Of a stretch of DNA of 64,000 nucleotides, positions 41,457 through 49,389 are shown one piece after another (position 1 is the stretch's first letter; the number at the start of each line of letters is the position of its first letter). The DNA is taken from NCBI RefSeq assembly GCF_900188485.1, contig NZ_FZPH01000002.1, positions 372,001 through 436,000 of the forward strand, read 5' to 3'. Below the pieces are notes generated by a model. It made no database searches. It was not told the DNA's origin and saw nothing but the letters and a program-made list of their open reading frames with translations. The DNA comes from Asanoa hainanensis. GTDB taxonomy: Bacteria > Actinomycetota > Actinomycetes > Mycobacteriales > Micromonosporaceae. A program made the position numbers and the translations under genes.

Positions 41457-42506
41457 TCACGTCGCTGCGCACGTGACTGTTGGCGTGGCCGCCGCGCCTG
41501 AGCCGAGTAACCCGAAAGTTGTGCTGGCTCCGGCTGCTACGGCGCCGTTGTAGCCGGCGTTTCTTACTGTTGCTGTGCTGCCGCTGGTGGTGGCTGTGCC
41601 GTTCCAGACTTGGGATACCTGCGCGCCGTTGGCGTAGGTCAGGGTGACTGTCCAGCTCGTGATTGCTCTGGAGCCCGCGGTTACTCGGACGTCGGCTTGG
41701 AAGCCGCCTGTCCACGCGCCTACCTGGGTGTAAGCGGCCGTGCAGCTGGCTGAGCCGCTCGGCGGAGTAGTCGTCGGTGGGGTGGTGGTTGGCGGCGTCG
41801 TTGGATTGCTGGTTGGTGGGTTGGTGGGGTTGCTTCCGCCGAAATTGACGTCGCTGCAGAAGTAGTAGGACTGGTCCATGTGGCTTGCCTGCCAGATCGT
41901 GTAGAACATCGCTCGGCCGCTGCGGCCTGGGACCGACACTGGGATGTCGATCTGGACGCCCTGGCTGGCTGGTTGCCACTGGGACGCTGGGGTGTAGCCG
42001 ATCTGGCTTACCAGCGTCAGGTCGCTCCAGCGGAGCGGTTGGGTCGTTGGGTCGTATCCCGACCGAGTCACGTACACGCGGATGTAGTCGGCTCCGTGGC
42101 TGGCTTGGTCCTGCAGCCGCAGCGAGAAGCTGGTGCTTACCGACTTTGCTTGCCAGTTGCCTACTGTGTCCATTGAGTTGTAGCGGCCTCCCTCGGCGTG
42201 GCCTCCGCTGCAGAGTTGGCCGTCCGGGATGTTGGCTTGGTGGTTGCCGGCCAGGTTCTCGCGGTACAGGCCGTTCCAGTTCCACATGGCGTTCGGGTTT
42301 GCCTGCCACGCCTGCCAGCACATGGGGTCCTGGGTGGCCATGGTGGGGTCCTGGAAGCGGGAGCCCCAGCGTTCCCAGCAGCCGTAGTTGCGGGACGCCG
42401 GGTTGATTACGCTGCCGTGGGCTGATGCCGGTGATGTTGGTAGGACGACGATGATGATGGCGGCCAGCGCGATGAGCGGGGCCACCAGCAGTCGGGCGAT
42501 GCGCAT
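41457..42506 (-). CDS. Secreted AA10 lytic polysaccharide monooxygenase with CBM2
   Basis: 349-residue secreted copper enzyme that oxidatively cleaves cellulose or chitin. The signal peptide ends ASA/HGSV, so mature residue 1 is H30; with H137 (ASHGADYIRVYV) it forms the histidine brace. The AA10 domain runs to about residue 225 (FYTIWQASHMDQSYYFCSDV). A Pro/Thr linker and a C-terminal CBM2 cellulose-binding module follow (GAWTGGFQADVRVTAGSRAI). A rare TTA leucine codon is used at 41508-41510 near the 3' end. The domain plan resembles cellulose-active Streptomyces enzymes. Confidence 0.95.
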   Translation of the reverse strand: MRIARLLVAPLIALAAIIIVVLPTSPASAHGSVINPASRNYGCWERWGSRFQDPTMATQDPMCWQAWQANPNAMWNWNGLYRENLAGNHQANIPDGQLCSGGHAEGGRYNSMDTVGNWQAKSVSTSFSLRLQDQASHGADYIRVYVTRSGYDPTTQPLRWSDLTLVSQIGYTPASQWQPASQGVQIDIPVSVPGRSGRAMFYTIWQASHMDQSYYFCSDVNFGGSNPTNPPTSNPTTPPTTTPPTTTPPSGSASCTAAYTQVGAWTGGFQADVRVTAGSRAITSWTVTLTYANGAQVSQVWNGTATTSGSTATVRNAGYNGAVAAGASTTFGLLGSGAAATPTVTCAAT

Positions 42507-45242: not shown

Positions 45243-46046
45243 ATGTCGACGGAGGCGCCGGAAGACTTCGCTGCTCGGCTGCGGGCCGCGCGCGCCCGGA
45301 GCGCGTCCCCAGCGACGAGCGAAGGGCACGGCACCGCCTTCGCCGGCCAGGTGCGGGTGTTCGCGACCGCCGGCCGGCTCCACCAGATCGAGCTCGAGCC
45401 CGCGCTCCTGCGCCTGACCCCCGACGAGCTCGGCGCGTACGTCATCGAGGCGACCAACGCCGCTCTCGCCCAGGACACCGGCGAGACCTCGGCGGTCGAC
45501 GCGGCCGTGCTCGACGACGCGTTGCGCGACGCCATGGAGTCCGGGTCGGCGATGATGCGCACCATCTCCGAGTCGCTCGGCGACGTGATGTTCCGGCTGC
45601 GCGAGCGCACCGGGATGAGCGGCGACCCGGGCACCCAGGGGCTGTCGTCCGTGCTCGACGAGGCCGGCGACCTGCTGCGCAAAGCGGCGGCAACGAGCAA
45701 CGACGGGCCGGCCGAGCAGACCGGCGAGGGTGCCGACGGCGCGGTGTTCGCGACCGTCCGGGCCGGGCCGCGCGTGGTCGAGATCGGCATCGTCGGTCGC
45801 GCGCTGCGGCTCGGCGCCTACGCGCTCGCCGAGGAGATCGTGACGGCCGTCAACGACGGCCTCGACAAGCTCGGCGATCAGGCGGAGACCGCAGACGCGG
45901 CGAACCCGGTGTCACCCGAGCGGATCCGCGACGTCCAGGACGCGAGCCTCGCGCACATGCAGGCCTACACCGGTGCGTTGCGCGCGCTGCTCGGCAGCGT
46001 CGGCGGGCCCGCACCGACCACCCGGGAACGGAGCGACGATGGCTGA
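45243..46046 (+). CDS. Tandem YbaB/EbfC-like protein
   Basis: 267-residue protein with two YbaB/EbfC-type domains. The first is at about residues 30-80 (FAGQVRVFATAGRLHQIELE). The second is at about 160-205 (ATVRAGPRVVEIGIVGRALR). A helical linker joins them and the tail is acidic. YbaB proteins are small dimeric nucleoid-associated proteins; a fused pair would mimic the dimer. In actinobacteria YbaB-like genes sit beside WXG100 and type VII secretion effectors. The next gene starts inside its last 8 bases. Confidence 0.7.
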   Translation: MSTEAPEDFAARLRAARARSASPATSEGHGTAFAGQVRVFATAGRLHQIELEPALLRLTPDELGAYVIEATNAALAQDTGETSAVDAAVLDDALRDAMESGSAMMRTISESLGDVMFRLRERTGMSGDPGTQGLSSVLDEAGDLLRKAAATSNDGPAEQTGEGADGAVFATVRAGPRVVEIGIVGRALRLGAYALAEEIVTAVNDGLDKLGDQAETADAANPVSPERIRDVQDASLAHMQAYTGALRALLGSVGGPAPTTRERSDDG

Positions 46047-46362
46047 CCTGGGCATCGATGCGGCGGCGCTGCGCTACTCGGGCGGCGGCGTGCAAGCCTC
46101 GGCCGACGGGATCTCGCAGCGGCTGTCGGCGTTCCAGGCCGAGCTGGCCTCGTTCGGGCAACCCTGGGGCAACGACGACCTCGGCTCGCTGATCGGCATG
46201 GCGTACGAGACGGTGCTGGAGGTGGCGATGGACTGCATCACCGAGAACCTCGGCGGCCTGGCCGAGGACGGCGCCGGGCTGGTCGGCATGGCCGACTCCT
46301 ACGACGCCGTCGAGCAGGAGAACGTGGCCGGCAGCCAGTATTTCGACGGCCGGCTCGGCTGA
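46039..46362 (+). CDS. WXG100-family (ESX/type VII secretion) protein
   Basis: 107-residue helical protein of the ESX/WXG100 type. The turn motif appears as FGQPWGNDDLGSLIG between two predicted helices, with W-G in place of strict W-x-G. These proteins pair as helical hairpins and are exported by type VII secretion. The ATG overlaps the preceding gene and the stop forms TGATG with the next ATG. No EccC/EccB-type secretion genes are in the window. Confidence 0.8.
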   Translation: MADLGIDAAALRYSGGGVQASADGISQRLSAFQAELASFGQPWGNDDLGSLIGMAYETVLEVAMDCITENLGGLAEDGAGLVGMADSYDAVEQENVAGSQYFDGRLG

Positions 46363-46856
46363 TGGGGCTCCAACTTCCCGGCGAGCTCACCGGGCTGCTC
46401 GCGATGCTCGGCTACACCTGGCCCGAGGCCGACGAGCAGAAGCTCTTCGAGATGGCGCAGAGCTGGGTGACGTTCGGCGGCGGGCTTCCGGCCGATCTTC
46501 AGGCCGCACACGCGTACGCCCAGCAGGTCTGGACCAACAACGAAGGCCAGGCGGTGCGGGCGTTCCAGGCGGCCTGGTCCGACCCGGAGTCGTTCAGCGC
46601 GAACCTCGACGACGCGGGCGTGGCCTCGACGATCGTCGGCGCGGCGCTGATGGCCTGCGCCGGCATCGTGCTCGCCCTGAAAATCAACGTCATCGTCCAG
46701 CTCGTCATGCTGGCGATCCAGATCGCACAAGCGATCGCCACGGCTGCGGTCACGTTCGGCGCGTCTCTGCTGGAGATACCCATCTTCAAGGAGATCACCG
46801 GCCTGATCATCGACCAGATCATCGACCTCGCGCTTCAGGCGGTCCTCAATGGATAG
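46362..46856 (+). CDS. CpnT-like WXG N-terminal domain protein without toxin domain
   Basis: 164 residues that match the N-terminal part of large WXG100-like toxins of the CpnT type (LPGELTGLLAMLGYTWPEAD, AQQVWTNNEGQAVRAFQAAW). Two strongly hydrophobic segments follow (IVGAALMACAGIVLALKINV, LVMLAIQIAQAIATAAVTFG). In relatives this domain continues into a C-terminal toxin; here it stops and an EndoU-type domain starts 8 bases later in another frame. That makes either a two-part effector or a frameshift (see findings). Confidence 0.78.
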   Translation: MGLQLPGELTGLLAMLGYTWPEADEQKLFEMAQSWVTFGGGLPADLQAAHAYAQQVWTNNEGQAVRAFQAAWSDPESFSANLDDAGVASTIVGAALMACAGIVLALKINVIVQLVMLAIQIAQAIATAAVTFGASLLEIPIFKEITGLIIDQIIDLALQAVLNG

Positions 46857-46864
46857 TCGCGACC

Positions 46865-47356
46865 ATGGCCAGGACTAGGGCCGGGGGAAGCGGCGGGAAC
46901 GCGGGCCTGTTCGAGCCGGCGCTCAAGTGGATGCGCAAGAAGGTGCAGTCCAGTCGGCGGCACCACCACGTCTTCCACGGCGAGGTGCGGGGCTCCCCAC
47001 CGCGGGGACCGGTCGGCAGTGGCTGGCACCACCGGTTCATGGGCCAGGACCCGCCGGACCGCCGGGTCGTCCGGGTCACCCGGCGCAGCGTCGACGGCAC
47101 CTACGCGGCCGACGTCGAGATGCGCGGCGGGCCGACCGGCGCGTGGTACCCCAAGCCCGCCGGCAGCTCGTTCTTCCCGGACAATTGGACCCCGCAGCGG
47201 GTCGACCGCGCGATCAACGACGCCTTCGACAGCGGCAGTACGATCCCCGGCACCGGCGGTCGACGCTGGCGCGGCCAGGCCGACGGCCTGCTCATCGAGG
47301 GTTCGTACCACCGCAACGGAAGGACATGGAACTCAGGATGGCCGATCGTGTCATGA
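46865..47356 (+). CDS. EndoU-type nuclease toxin domain protein
   Basis: 163-residue basic protein consisting of a short Gly-rich lead and one bacterial EndoU-like RNase domain. Recognised features are HHHVFHGEV with H38, GWHHR with H55/H56, VRRSVDGTYAADVEM-like strands (VTRRSVDGTYAADVEM), and the family-typical SSFFPDNWTPQRVDRAINDA. EndoU toxins of contact-dependent and type VII systems cleave tRNA or rRNA. There is no signal of its own. The stop overlaps the next ATG as ATGA, the usual toxin-immunity layout. Confidence 0.82.
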   Translation: MARTRAGGSGGNAGLFEPALKWMRKKVQSSRRHHHVFHGEVRGSPPRGPVGSGWHHRFMGQDPPDRRVVRVTRRSVDGTYAADVEMRGGPTGAWYPKPAGSSFFPDNWTPQRVDRAINDAFDSGSTIPGTGGRRWRGQADGLLIEGSYHRNGRTWNSGWPIVS

Positions 47357-47754
47357 GCGGGGTCACCTTCTACCGCGACGAGTACGGCGGACCCGCCGCG
47401 CGCCCCCGCGACGACTCGTGGAGCGCGATCGGCTCGCTGATGACCAGCGACGTGCAGAACGTGGCGACCTGGGCCCTGCGGCTGCTGGCCTGGATCGACG
47501 ACGTCGCGGCCGGTCGCAGCGCCGGCGAGAGCTGGCAGGGCAACTCGTGGCAGGTCGAGATCGACAGGGCCGGCGTGCACCTCCAGGACCTCCACTCCGA
47601 CGACTGGACCGGCACGCACACGCTGGCCGAGGCCCGCGCCGTGCTGCTCGAATACCTGCGCTTCCTGCTGCCCGGCCCCGACGAGCGCCGGAGCGAGCTC
47701 GCCACCTGGGAGCGCGACGAAGGCCGCGACCACCCCAGCCGGGCGGAGATCTAA
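47353..47754 (+). CDS. Probable immunity protein to the EndoU toxin
   Basis: 133 residues from ATG 47353 (ATGA overlap with the toxin stop); in-frame ATGs at 47338 and 47326, the latter 2 bases behind GGAAGG, would add a few residues. It is soluble, acidic and Trp-rich (DDSWSAIGSLMTSDVQNVAT, ESWQGNSWQVEIDRAGVHLQ). No database family is recognised by me. Size, acidity and position directly after a basic nuclease are what immunity proteins show, so the role is inferred from context. Confidence 0.65.
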   Translation: MSGVTFYRDEYGGPAARPRDDSWSAIGSLMTSDVQNVATWALRLLAWIDDVAAGRSAGESWQGNSWQVEIDRAGVHLQDLHSDDWTGTHTLAEARAVLLEYLRFLLPGPDERRSELATWERDEGRDHPSRAEI

Positions 47755-47802: not shown

Positions 47803-49389
47803 CTAACCTGCCGCGCAGGTCAGTCCTGAGCCAGGGCCGTTGCCGGTGCCCTGGAAGCCGAACTCGGTCGACTGTCCAGCCGCGACGGACCCGTTGTAGG
47901 CGACGTTGGTGAAGGTCGTGCCGCTGCGGTTCGCGTTCCAGACGTTGGTGACCGCCGCACCGGCCGGCAGCGGCACCGTGACCGTCCAGCCGCTGACCGG
48001 TTGCCCGCCCGCCGTGACCCGGATCGTGGCGACGAACCCACCCGTCCACTGGTTGACCGACGCGGACGCGGTGCAGCCCCCGCCGGCGGGCGGCGGCGTG
48101 GTGGGCGGCGGCGTCGTGGGGGGCTGGGAGGTTGGCGGCGGTGTGGTCGGGCCGTCCGTCAGGGTCGGCGTCTGCCAGTCCCGCCACTCCGCGAGGTTGC
48201 CCGCCTTCCGGCTCGAGATCCGGAACGTACCAGCGGCGTTTCCGGTCTTCAGCAGGAACTTCTGGATGTGTTGTTGCAGCGGCGTCCGCCATTCGGAGCG
48301 GGAGGCGCAGTGCGTGCCGTCCGAGACGTCGGACCAGTACGTGATGTTCTCGCCCGCGCCGAGCGCCTTGTAGACCTCGGCCCCCGCGAGCGCCGCCACG
48401 CTGCCGGAGCGGGCCGCCAGCCAGTCGATATGCGGGTTCTCCATGACGAACAGGCCGCGCGGCGCGACCATCGCCACCACCTCGTGCGTGTCGATCGGCA
48501 GCGAGCTCGGGTTGCCGGTGTACGCGCTGAACGCGTCGCCGAGCCAGGGCTGCTCCCCGTACGCGCTGCTGAGCGGCTGCGCACCGGACTCACCGGGAAT
48601 ACCGCGCAGGATCGGCACACCCGCACTGCCCGACTCGATCGGCATCGTGAGCGCGATCCGCTGGTCGAACGCGCCGACCGCGAACGCGCCCTTCCCGTAC
48701 CGCGAGCATCCGGTGACGCCCATCGCGTCCGCCCGCAGGATGCTGCCGCCGGACTGCTCGACCACGTCGATGATCCGGCTGGCTCCCCACGCCCAGGCGG
48801 CGAGCAGGCCCGTGCTGCTGGTCGCGCCGTAGATGCTGTAGAACGCGCCCTGCTTGTTGGTCCGCGGAGTGCCTTCCCGACCCACGGCGAGCGGGTCGTA
48901 CGAGATGACCGCCGCACCCGTCGCCCGGATGGTGGCCGTGTCGGCACCGAACCCACCGAGCACGATCACGGCCGGGAACGGCCCGGTGCCGCTGGGCAGT
49001 TGCACGCTGGCCGAGAAGCTCGCACTGCGGCCGTTGTGCGCGACGTTGACGGTGATGCCGCTGCTGGAGACCGTGCCGGTGACGCTGGCCGGCTTGCCTG
49101 GCTTGTCGCCGTACACGTGCCGCTCGGCAAGCTCTTTGATCTCGGCGCGGCGGCAGCGCCAGTCGGACTTCGACGTGATCCGGGTGCCGGCGACCTTCCG
49201 GAACGGATCCGGAAGCCGGGAGCTGGCGATGGGCGATCCTGAGCCGGGCACGGGGCAGTCGGTGCCGTCGTCCTCGACGGCGGCCGCGGCGGCGAGGCTG
49301 GTCGTGCGCGCCACCGCGACGCCGGCGACCGCCAGCACCACGGCCAGGAACGCGACGACGACCGCGCGCAGGTGAGAGCGGGTGAGCAC
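47803..49389 (-). CDS. Secreted CE15 glucuronoyl methylesterase with CBM2
   Basis: 528-residue secreted esterase of the 4-O-methyl-glucuronoyl methylesterase family, which cuts lignin-glucuronoxylan ester links. After a signal peptide (VVVAFLAVVLAVAGVAV), the catalytic domain spans about residues 45-395. The nucleophile serine is in GVTGCSRYGKGAF, a conserved PIESG follows, and the catalytic His is in DGTHCASRSEW. A Pro/Thr linker and a C-terminal CBM2 (VNQWTGGFVATIRVTAGGQP) complete it. The gene is monocistronic, downstream of the LysR gene on the same strand. Confidence 0.92.
   Translation of the reverse strand: MLTRSHLRAVVVAFLAVVLAVAGVAVARTTSLAAAAAVEDDGTDCPVPGSGSPIASSRLPDPFRKVAGTRITSKSDWRCRRAEIKELAERHVYGDKPGKPASVTGTVSSSGITVNVAHNGRSASFSASVQLPSGTGPFPAVIVLGGFGADTATIRATGAAVISYDPLAVGREGTPRTNKQGAFYSIYGATSSTGLLAAWAWGASRIIDVVEQSGGSILRADAMGVTGCSRYGKGAFAVGAFDQRIALTMPIESGSAGVPILRGIPGESGAQPLSSAYGEQPWLGDAFSAYTGNPSSLPIDTHEVVAMVAPRGLFVMENPHIDWLAARSGSVAALAGAEVYKALGAGENITYWSDVSDGTHCASRSEWRTPLQQHIQKFLLKTGNAAGTFRISSRKAGNLAEWRDWQTPTLTDGPTTPPPTSQPPTTPPPTTPPPAGGGCTASASVNQWTGGFVATIRVTAGGQPVSGWTVTVPLPAGAAVTNVWNANRSGTTFTNVAYNGSVAAGQSTEFGFQGTGNGPGSGLTCAAG

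Follow-up and report, generated by a model that had tools for sequence, protein, structure and literature searches.

A putative split type VII toxin system in Asanoa hainanensis and related actinomycetes, with a stand-alone WXG100_2 adaptor and separately encoded toxins

The stretch of the Asanoa hainanensis genome analysed here (hereafter the window; 64,000 nucleotides, C28:372001-436000 of an 8.64-Mb genome in 44 contigs) carries a compact five-gene cassette at 45243-47754, in which a WXG100_2 domain and an EndoU nuclease domain are encoded by two separate, neighbouring genes. We consider it likely that the cassette represents a split type VII (ESX) polymorphic toxin system, in which a leader on the toxin would recruit it to a pair of adaptor proteins. 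The split proved to be a true gene arrangement, conserved and widespread, and not the product of a frameshift or sequencing error. A sequence-only reading of the window had described a single odd locus with EndoU; the split was borne out, but the locus belongs to a whole family, in which EndoU is one cargo of many.

All five open reading frames of the cassette are present on the forward strand and, as had been noted in that reading, tightly joined. A YbaB/EbfC-family gene (45243-46046, 267 amino acids (aa)) overlaps by 8 base pairs (bp) the gene of an ESX substrate-like partner protein (WXG100/PE/EspC-like, 46039-46362, 107 aa), which is joined by a TGATG to the gene of a stand-alone WXG100_2/PPE-like adaptor (46362-46856, 164 aa). 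After a gap of 8 bp follows a stand-alone EndoU-family ribonuclease (RNase) toxin candidate (46865-47356, 163 aa), linked by an ATGA overlap to the gene of a candidate cognate immunity protein (47353-47754, 133 aa). The adaptor matches PF25547 (WXG100_2, E 9.5e-13) and its chain ends with the domain, carrying no toxin, and the next gene product matches PF14436 (EndoU, E 6.4e-17 over aa 31-161), both in agreement with the earlier assignments. The architecture of CpnT-like proteins, with a WXG-type domain and a C-terminal toxin in one chain, is thus absent from the cassette, the two parts being encoded by separate genes.

The same genome holds a second EndoU cassette (L001) with identical gene order and an identical adaptor/toxin split, comprising a YbaB protein of 143 aa, a partner of 106 aa, an adaptor of 164 aa, an EndoU protein of 171 aa and an immunity candidate of 146 aa. 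Because this five-gene order recurs within the genome, and because the ratios of nonsynonymous to synonymous substitution (dN/dS) against the A. ishikariensis orthologue lie between 0.07 and 0.44 (YbaB 0.36, partner 0.44, adaptor 0.07, EndoU 0.26, immunity candidate 0.36), the cassette is more than a chance assembly. In a third cassette (L034/L036), a 164-aa adaptor is joined by an 8-bp overlap to a different candidate toxin of 207 aa, followed by a downstream protein of 181 aa, the YbaB gene being called on the opposite strand; the fourth WXG100_2 gene of the genome sits inside a 1151-aa open frame. The split is shared by the orthologous loci L198 of A. ishikariensis and L199 of A. siamensis. 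A frameshift or sequencing error at 46850-46865 was ruled out by the three split cassettes of the genome together with these two orthologues. Orthologous loci with one fused WXG-EndoU chain, which the sequence-only reading had named as the finding that would speak against a genuine split, were sought by locus comparison and not found.

This also held in a wider sample. Among the 31 best-scoring EndoU loci fetched (L001-L031; 102 of 300 genomes gave matches), 27 are directly preceded on the same strand by an intact adaptor gene that stands alone, and the remaining four comprise two without adaptor (L016, L028), one with the adaptor on the other strand (L029) and one degenerate locus (L027); a fused adaptor-EndoU chain occurred in none of the 31. 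Nor was such a fusion seen in 16 further loci, of which L193-L195 repeat L016, L026 and L028; eight of these loci are intact and split, L183, L193 and L195 are without adaptor, and L184-L188 gave no match to the EndoU profile, PF14436 matching them in part, sometimes within long frames of which the N-terminal portion was not covered. A survey of the class (296 genomes, 13 matched, 11 loci read) likewise revealed no adaptor-EndoU fusion. There, family f19 (L282-L288, L294-L296) presents EndoU in another architecture with ERKAALLD-type repeats, and no adaptor match was found within the fetched loci of these genes. Paractinoplanes toevensis (L027/L259) carries degenerate cassettes, in which the adaptor frame continues out of frame into the toxin region.

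The adaptors form a uniform family. Eighteen of them aligned without gaps over 164 columns, and in the named-genome scan, of which the best 80 of 147 relatives were kept so that close relatives are favoured, the adaptor stops after 163-165 codons in 78 of 80 loci, the two exceptions being L252, which runs off its contig, and the degenerate L259 (175 aa); the adaptor of L211 has 164 aa. These relatives include Asanoa, Micromonospora, Actinoplanes and allies, Dactylosporangium, Glycomyces, Actinomadura, Thermomonospora and Actinoallomurus. Of the 56 profile matches in larger fetched regions, 43 belong to adaptors closed by a stop codon and the other 13 to fused chains, so the single-chain union of trafficking domain and toxin usual for polymorphic toxins is missing from 43 of 56 matches here and from 78 of the 80 named loci. 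With fused forms included, the adaptor profile matched at E below 1e-10 in 29 of the 61 family genomes and 27 of the 296 class genomes. Ten matches were read outside the family, the two in genome G538 being split and the eight in G582, G549, G356 and G489 fused. In the sample of the phylum, 3 of 396 genomes matched at 1e-20, namely that of the window (three split adaptors) and two others, whose matches lie in open frames of 400-1874 aa. Loci with poor gene calls in GC-rich DNA were left out of alignments A3 (L164) and A4 (L152, L164); L200, L211, L237, L239, L249, L252, L255, L256, L266 and L276 were left out of A7. A structural model of the window adaptor is all-helical (mean pLDDT 80) and its closest folds, at moderate strength, are Esx and PPE proteins; together with PF25547 and the partner family, this fits the helical hairpin of WXG100/PE/PPE-type ESX substrates. 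Sequence searches of the Protein Data Bank (PDB) with the adaptor, EndoU and immunity profiles returned nothing useful.

What stands behind the adaptor varies widely. Among 40 scanned next-gene products, EndoU was recognised in 15 (E<=0.01, as for the counts that follow), GH-E in two and YwqJ-deaminase in two, with one each of Ntox30, Endonuclea_NS_2, DddA-like, Ntox15 and a weak MDH match. Seventy products of the named loci, a set that shares loci with the first so that the counts are not additive, yielded EndoU in 25, RHS repeat/DUF6531 in five, XOO_2897 deaminase in four, Endonuclea_NS_2 and YwqJ in two each, NERD and DUF4595 in one each, and overlapping RHS-type models; in both sets, products without a match are toxins by position only. 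An NCBIfam scan of the toxins gave no match. HNH-type toxins are among the recognisable cargoes, and altogether at least seven Pfam toxin families are found behind one adaptor clade, in keeping with polymorphic toxins, whose toxin domains vary while the trafficking part is conserved. The bodies of these proteins fall into 22 families among 84 loci; L142, L154 and the first unit of L137 are excluded from the toxin set, and three of the 110 products have a wrong or truncated start (L038, L125, L259). When the label EndoU or other was placed on a tree of 85 adaptors, it changed eight times, at least five of the changes being forced by well-supported branches. To judge from this tree, the cargo has been swapped repeatedly at the gene boundary. 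One RHS-type body family occurs as separate partner of a split adaptor in L164, L214, L221, L232, L269 and L272, with 736-1246 aa as read, some proteins ending at the edge of the fetched locus. In eight Actinomadura cassettes (L203, L208, L209, L210, L212, L213, L225, L242) the product after the adaptor has a membrane-like hydrophobic N-terminus; a hydrophobic N-terminal stretch (15-aa mean hydropathy above 1.6) was recorded in 8 of 110 products, all from Actinomadura.

EndoU enzymes use two histidines and a lysine. Besides the profile match, the catalytic-type residues H35, H55 and K97 are invariant in 14 aligned sequences, and RNase activity is predicted. The last protein of the window cassette had no Pfam or NCBIfam match; it belongs to a family found downstream of EndoU and aligns with 16 other EndoU-linked downstream proteins at 23-88% identity. 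Scanning of 39 downstream proteins returned SUKH-4, SUKH-3, SMI1_KNR4, Imm1, YezG-like, SUFU and ankyrin among the matches, many proteins remaining without one. An immunity gene directly downstream, characteristic of polymorphic toxins, is thus indicated by known families as well as by the EndoU-linked family.

Fused homologues point to the history of the split. In a midpoint-rooted tree of 49 split and 13 fused adaptors, all split ones fall into one clade (100/99), which also contains three fused rows (L158, L161, L162); outside it, the nearest row (L165) and the other nine are all fused. The tail of fused L165 shares 38.7-42.8% identity over 1049-1136 columns with the stand-alone RHS partners of L232, L272, L269 and L164, and also matches L221 and L214, and a second family of stand-alone toxins is matched by the tails of fused L172 (best E 8e-14) and L171 (best E 5e-6). 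For the remaining ten fused tails, no stand-alone toxin matched at 0.01. Modules are therefore found both as one chain and as two neighbouring genes, a classic sign of joint function. The simplest history compatible with the tree would be one gene fission, followed by spread and a few re-fusions.

A candidate for the element that joins toxin and adaptor is the basic N-terminal leader, about the first 34 aa of the window toxin (46865-46966). The first 50 aa of the stand-alone toxins have a mean net charge of +8.7 (76 non-redundant of 108), compared with -3.8 for downstream proteins (79), -4.3 for the proteins encoded at the partner position (-1; 69) and -2.1 for those at the YbaB position (-2; 98), and in 65 of the 76 toxins the charge is +5 or more. 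A profile made from EndoU leaders exceeded 5 bits in 9 of the 54 other leaders (among them L204, which is actually EndoU), compared with 0/54 interior stretches, 0/270 shuffles, 0/79 downstream proteins and 2/167 upstream proteins. Among 2988 locus pairs with unrelated bodies, leader similarity correlated with adaptor identity (rho 0.122, a value reached in none of 1000 permutations), the corresponding value for the C-termini being -0.003, and strongly similar leader pairs numbered 215 as against 18 in the C-terminal control. Leader similarity thus follows the adaptor weakly but significantly, and the leader signal goes partly with the carrier and not with the warhead. In the fused chains, the stretch after the domain is basic in L161 (+11 in 30 aa) and only +2 in L158, and neither matches the EndoU-leader profile.

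The second gene had been read as WXG100. Across the family this held, since among 52 scanned -1 proteins 25 matched WXG100, 21 PE and 13 EspC at E<=0.01 (the models overlap), but the window protein alone stays below threshold (WXG100, E 0.09). These Pfam scans covered the window and 51 (-1) or 48 (-2) of the 80 named loci, hand-picked as plausible, so that the fractions lean upward. A YxxxD/E motif near the C-terminus, the export motif of ESX substrates, is present in 34 of 56 non-redundant -1 proteins (shuffled mean 5.6, maximum 12 in 200 shuffles), and when a Y/F/H/W start is allowed in 52 (shuffled mean 14.2), whereas control downstream proteins showed 2/79 and 18/79, respectively; the 56 include neighbours of fused adaptors. 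In the window partner the motif reads YDAVE (46300-46314) and is a candidate export arm. Only 6 of the 56 proteins contain the W.G motif itself, and 33 contain WG. In Lap1 of the LXG toxins, an FxxxD motif is required for export (PMC9600955).

The tandem YbaB gene was confirmed as well, PF02575 matching in two stretches of the window protein (E 1.1e-9), and at E<=0.01 this family was found in 41 of 49 scanned -2 proteins. Among the 80 named relatives, the -2 gene encodes 220-330 aa in 22, 110-170 aa in 47 and neither in 11, so the double-length gene of the window is not unique. It is a candidate chaperone of the cassette; the YbaB-like proteins EspH and EspL are proposed ESX-1 chaperones (PMC6107294, PMC6319747).

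No ESX genes were seen near the cassette, as the sequence-only reading had stated, but an ESX core set exists elsewhere in the genome. In one region, contig C20 encodes EccB, EccD, EccE, a three-domain FtsK/SpoIIIE ATPase, which we infer to be EccC, two subtilases and a WXG100 protein, and a second EccB lies on contig C15. EccB was found in 42 of 42 genomes checked, all but one in the family of the window, including 21/21 tested genomes with adaptor-clade loci and 20/20 without; because the control genomes all have it, its presence shows only that a route is available.

Taken as a split toxin system, the cassette could work as follows. The WXG100/PE-like partner and the PPE-like 164-aa adaptor would pair up as a helical targeting unit, with the YbaB protein keeping it in solution. 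The toxin, made separately and in this case the EndoU RNase, would be neutralised by the product of the last gene and dock through its basic leader onto the acidic adaptor pair (net charge -9 over the first 88 residues of the window adaptor). The composite, with the YDAVE arm of the partner, may then be recognised by the ESX machine encoded elsewhere, and the toxin be exported against competing bacteria. Since delivery part and warhead are divided at a gene boundary, exchange of the toxin-immunity part would bring in new toxins. The non-covalent recruitment implied by the earlier reading is supported, not proven, by the fused homologues, shared leaders, strict adaptor end and repeated cargo changes. 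The correlation of leader and adaptor could also be explained by linkage, if swaps break just after the leader, and the YxxxE motif of EsxF is dispensable for toxin secretion (PMC7810871). Whether the exchangeable leader generally allows a single conserved adaptor pair to take on warheads that are unrelated and fold separately, possibly also in trans, we regard as evenly balanced; the class would range from 150-aa nucleases and deaminases up to 1,200-aa RHS proteins. One Glycomyces genome (G049) contains trios without a recognised toxin (L142, first unit of L137) and an EndoU-immunity pair without trio (L193), an arrangement that would fit loading in trans.

Other explanations start from the same features. 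The adaptor has a hydrophobic segment (about aa 85-130, 46614-46751, hydropathy mean up to 2.27 over 19 aa), conserved in alignments A1 and A8, by which the partner-adaptor pair could form a pore or translocator for the separate toxin, in the manner of EsxE-EsxF for CpnT. The cassette would then be a binary, AB-like toxin, and the split would reflect two functions instead of a two-piece targeting signal. This seems rather unlikely to us, as the fold match is expected for any WXG100 hairpin and the fused homologues, with the adaptor domain in the toxin chain, fit targeting equally well. The Lap factors of T7SSb, a type VII secretion system (T7SS), stay in the producer cell (PMC9600955).

The toxin-immunity pair might also be an orphan reservoir, or a toxin-antitoxin unit acting inside the cell, that only happens to adjoin the targeting trio and would not be transported with its help. 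Polymorphic toxin loci are known to draw new C-termini from stand-alone toxin cassettes (PMC3482391), and pairs without trio exist here (L193, L195). Against this, the adaptor directly before the pair ends with its domain, at 163-165 aa in 78 of 80 loci, and so is no full-length fused toxin. The adaptor and the next gene also overlap by 8 bp, in 22 of the 43 split adaptors from fetched regions and in 49 of 78 named loci with a called next gene, frequently as ATGGCTAG or GTGGCTAG, in which TAG is the adaptor stop and the first codon the toxin start. At the equivalent position of the window (46849-46856), where many relatives have the toxin start codon, stands ATGGATAG, the toxin starting 8 bp downstream instead. 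With leaders that track adaptors and with fused homologues, we hold the orphan pair to be improbable. Recoding by frameshift or read-through, which would make the split only apparent, is very improbable. In its favour, the junction is conserved and often overlapping, and the L001 toxin continues in frame beyond a single stop codon; on the other side, each of the three relative frames is represented (gap modulo 3 of 1/0/2 in 29/9/5 of 43 and 56/14/8 of 78), the gap varies among the Asanoa orthologues (window +8, A. ishikariensis -4, A. siamensis -8), and an overlapping start/stop is ordinary translational coupling.

The N-terminal domain of CpnT, the toxin of Mycobacterium tuberculosis, is WXG-like. 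Its operon (CpnT/EsxE/EsxF/IFT) resembles the cassette in the small Esx partners, in the combination of N-terminal domain and C-terminal toxin, and in the immunity gene, which comes last and overlaps the toxin gene (PMC7810871). Unlike the cassette, with its separate genes, one Esx-like partner and YbaB gene, CpnT is a single chain of domain and toxin, accompanied by two Esx partners. We know of no separate toxin cargo with an immunity gene in the mycobacterial PE/PPE-EspG and Esp systems. These systems (PE/PPE-EspG, EspA-EspC-EspD, EspE-EspF-EspH) share with the cassette a PE/EspC-like small partner, a PPE-like partner and a dedicated chaperone (PMC6107294, PMC6319747). In the LXG toxins of Bacillota, Lap1 and Lap2 are helical partners in a pre-secretion complex, with an FxxxD resembling the YxxxD/E arm, and toxin and immunity genes lie together; the LXG domain, however, is part of the toxin chain, and the excerpt of this paper shows no YbaB (PMC9600955). 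Listeria LrhA is an Rhs toxin beside small WXG100-type partners (LxpABC) and a proposed T7SSb substrate that keeps its own helical N-terminal region (PMC10327511), whereas here an Rhs protein with basic N-terminus follows a separate adaptor gene. The lipase toxin TslA likewise departs from the usual N-terminal targeting domain (PMC10730906), its reversed domains still lying in one chain. The same 2023 paper attributes a helical N-terminal domain to every T7SS substrate described to date and presents TslA as the first case of the opposite arrangement (PMC10730906). YbaB is not mentioned in the excerpt of PMC3482391, and the words YbaB and split are both absent from that of PMC11217815. The suggestion that a two-part design is apparently undescribed agrees with the literature searched, in which no description was found by title and beginning of the abstract, subscription papers and bioRxiv preprints being largely outside the search.

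The surroundings of the cassette include two cellulose-binding enzymes that flank it, both on the reverse strand, namely an LPMO_10-CBM2 protein (41457-42506) and a glucuronyl esterase-CBM2 protein (47803-49389). Other neighbours are a YibE/F protein, a LysR regulator and a protein with a weak squalene-hopene cyclase match.

The system combines the toxin and immunity features of polymorphic toxins with the helical-pair features of ESX substrates and lacks the single chain. Because the published T7SS toxins found keep the helical targeting domain in the toxin chain, the split looks like a new form. Its recurrence with many unrelated toxins suggests a plug-in weapon, the parts of which meet only after being made. 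A natural split marks where delivery ends and the warhead begins, yields a small candidate docking element, and makes the joining of cargo and targeting complex directly testable. If the reading as a split toxin system is true, an antibacterial function would be added to the ESX systems of these actinomycetes, together with a catalogue of candidate toxins and immunities.

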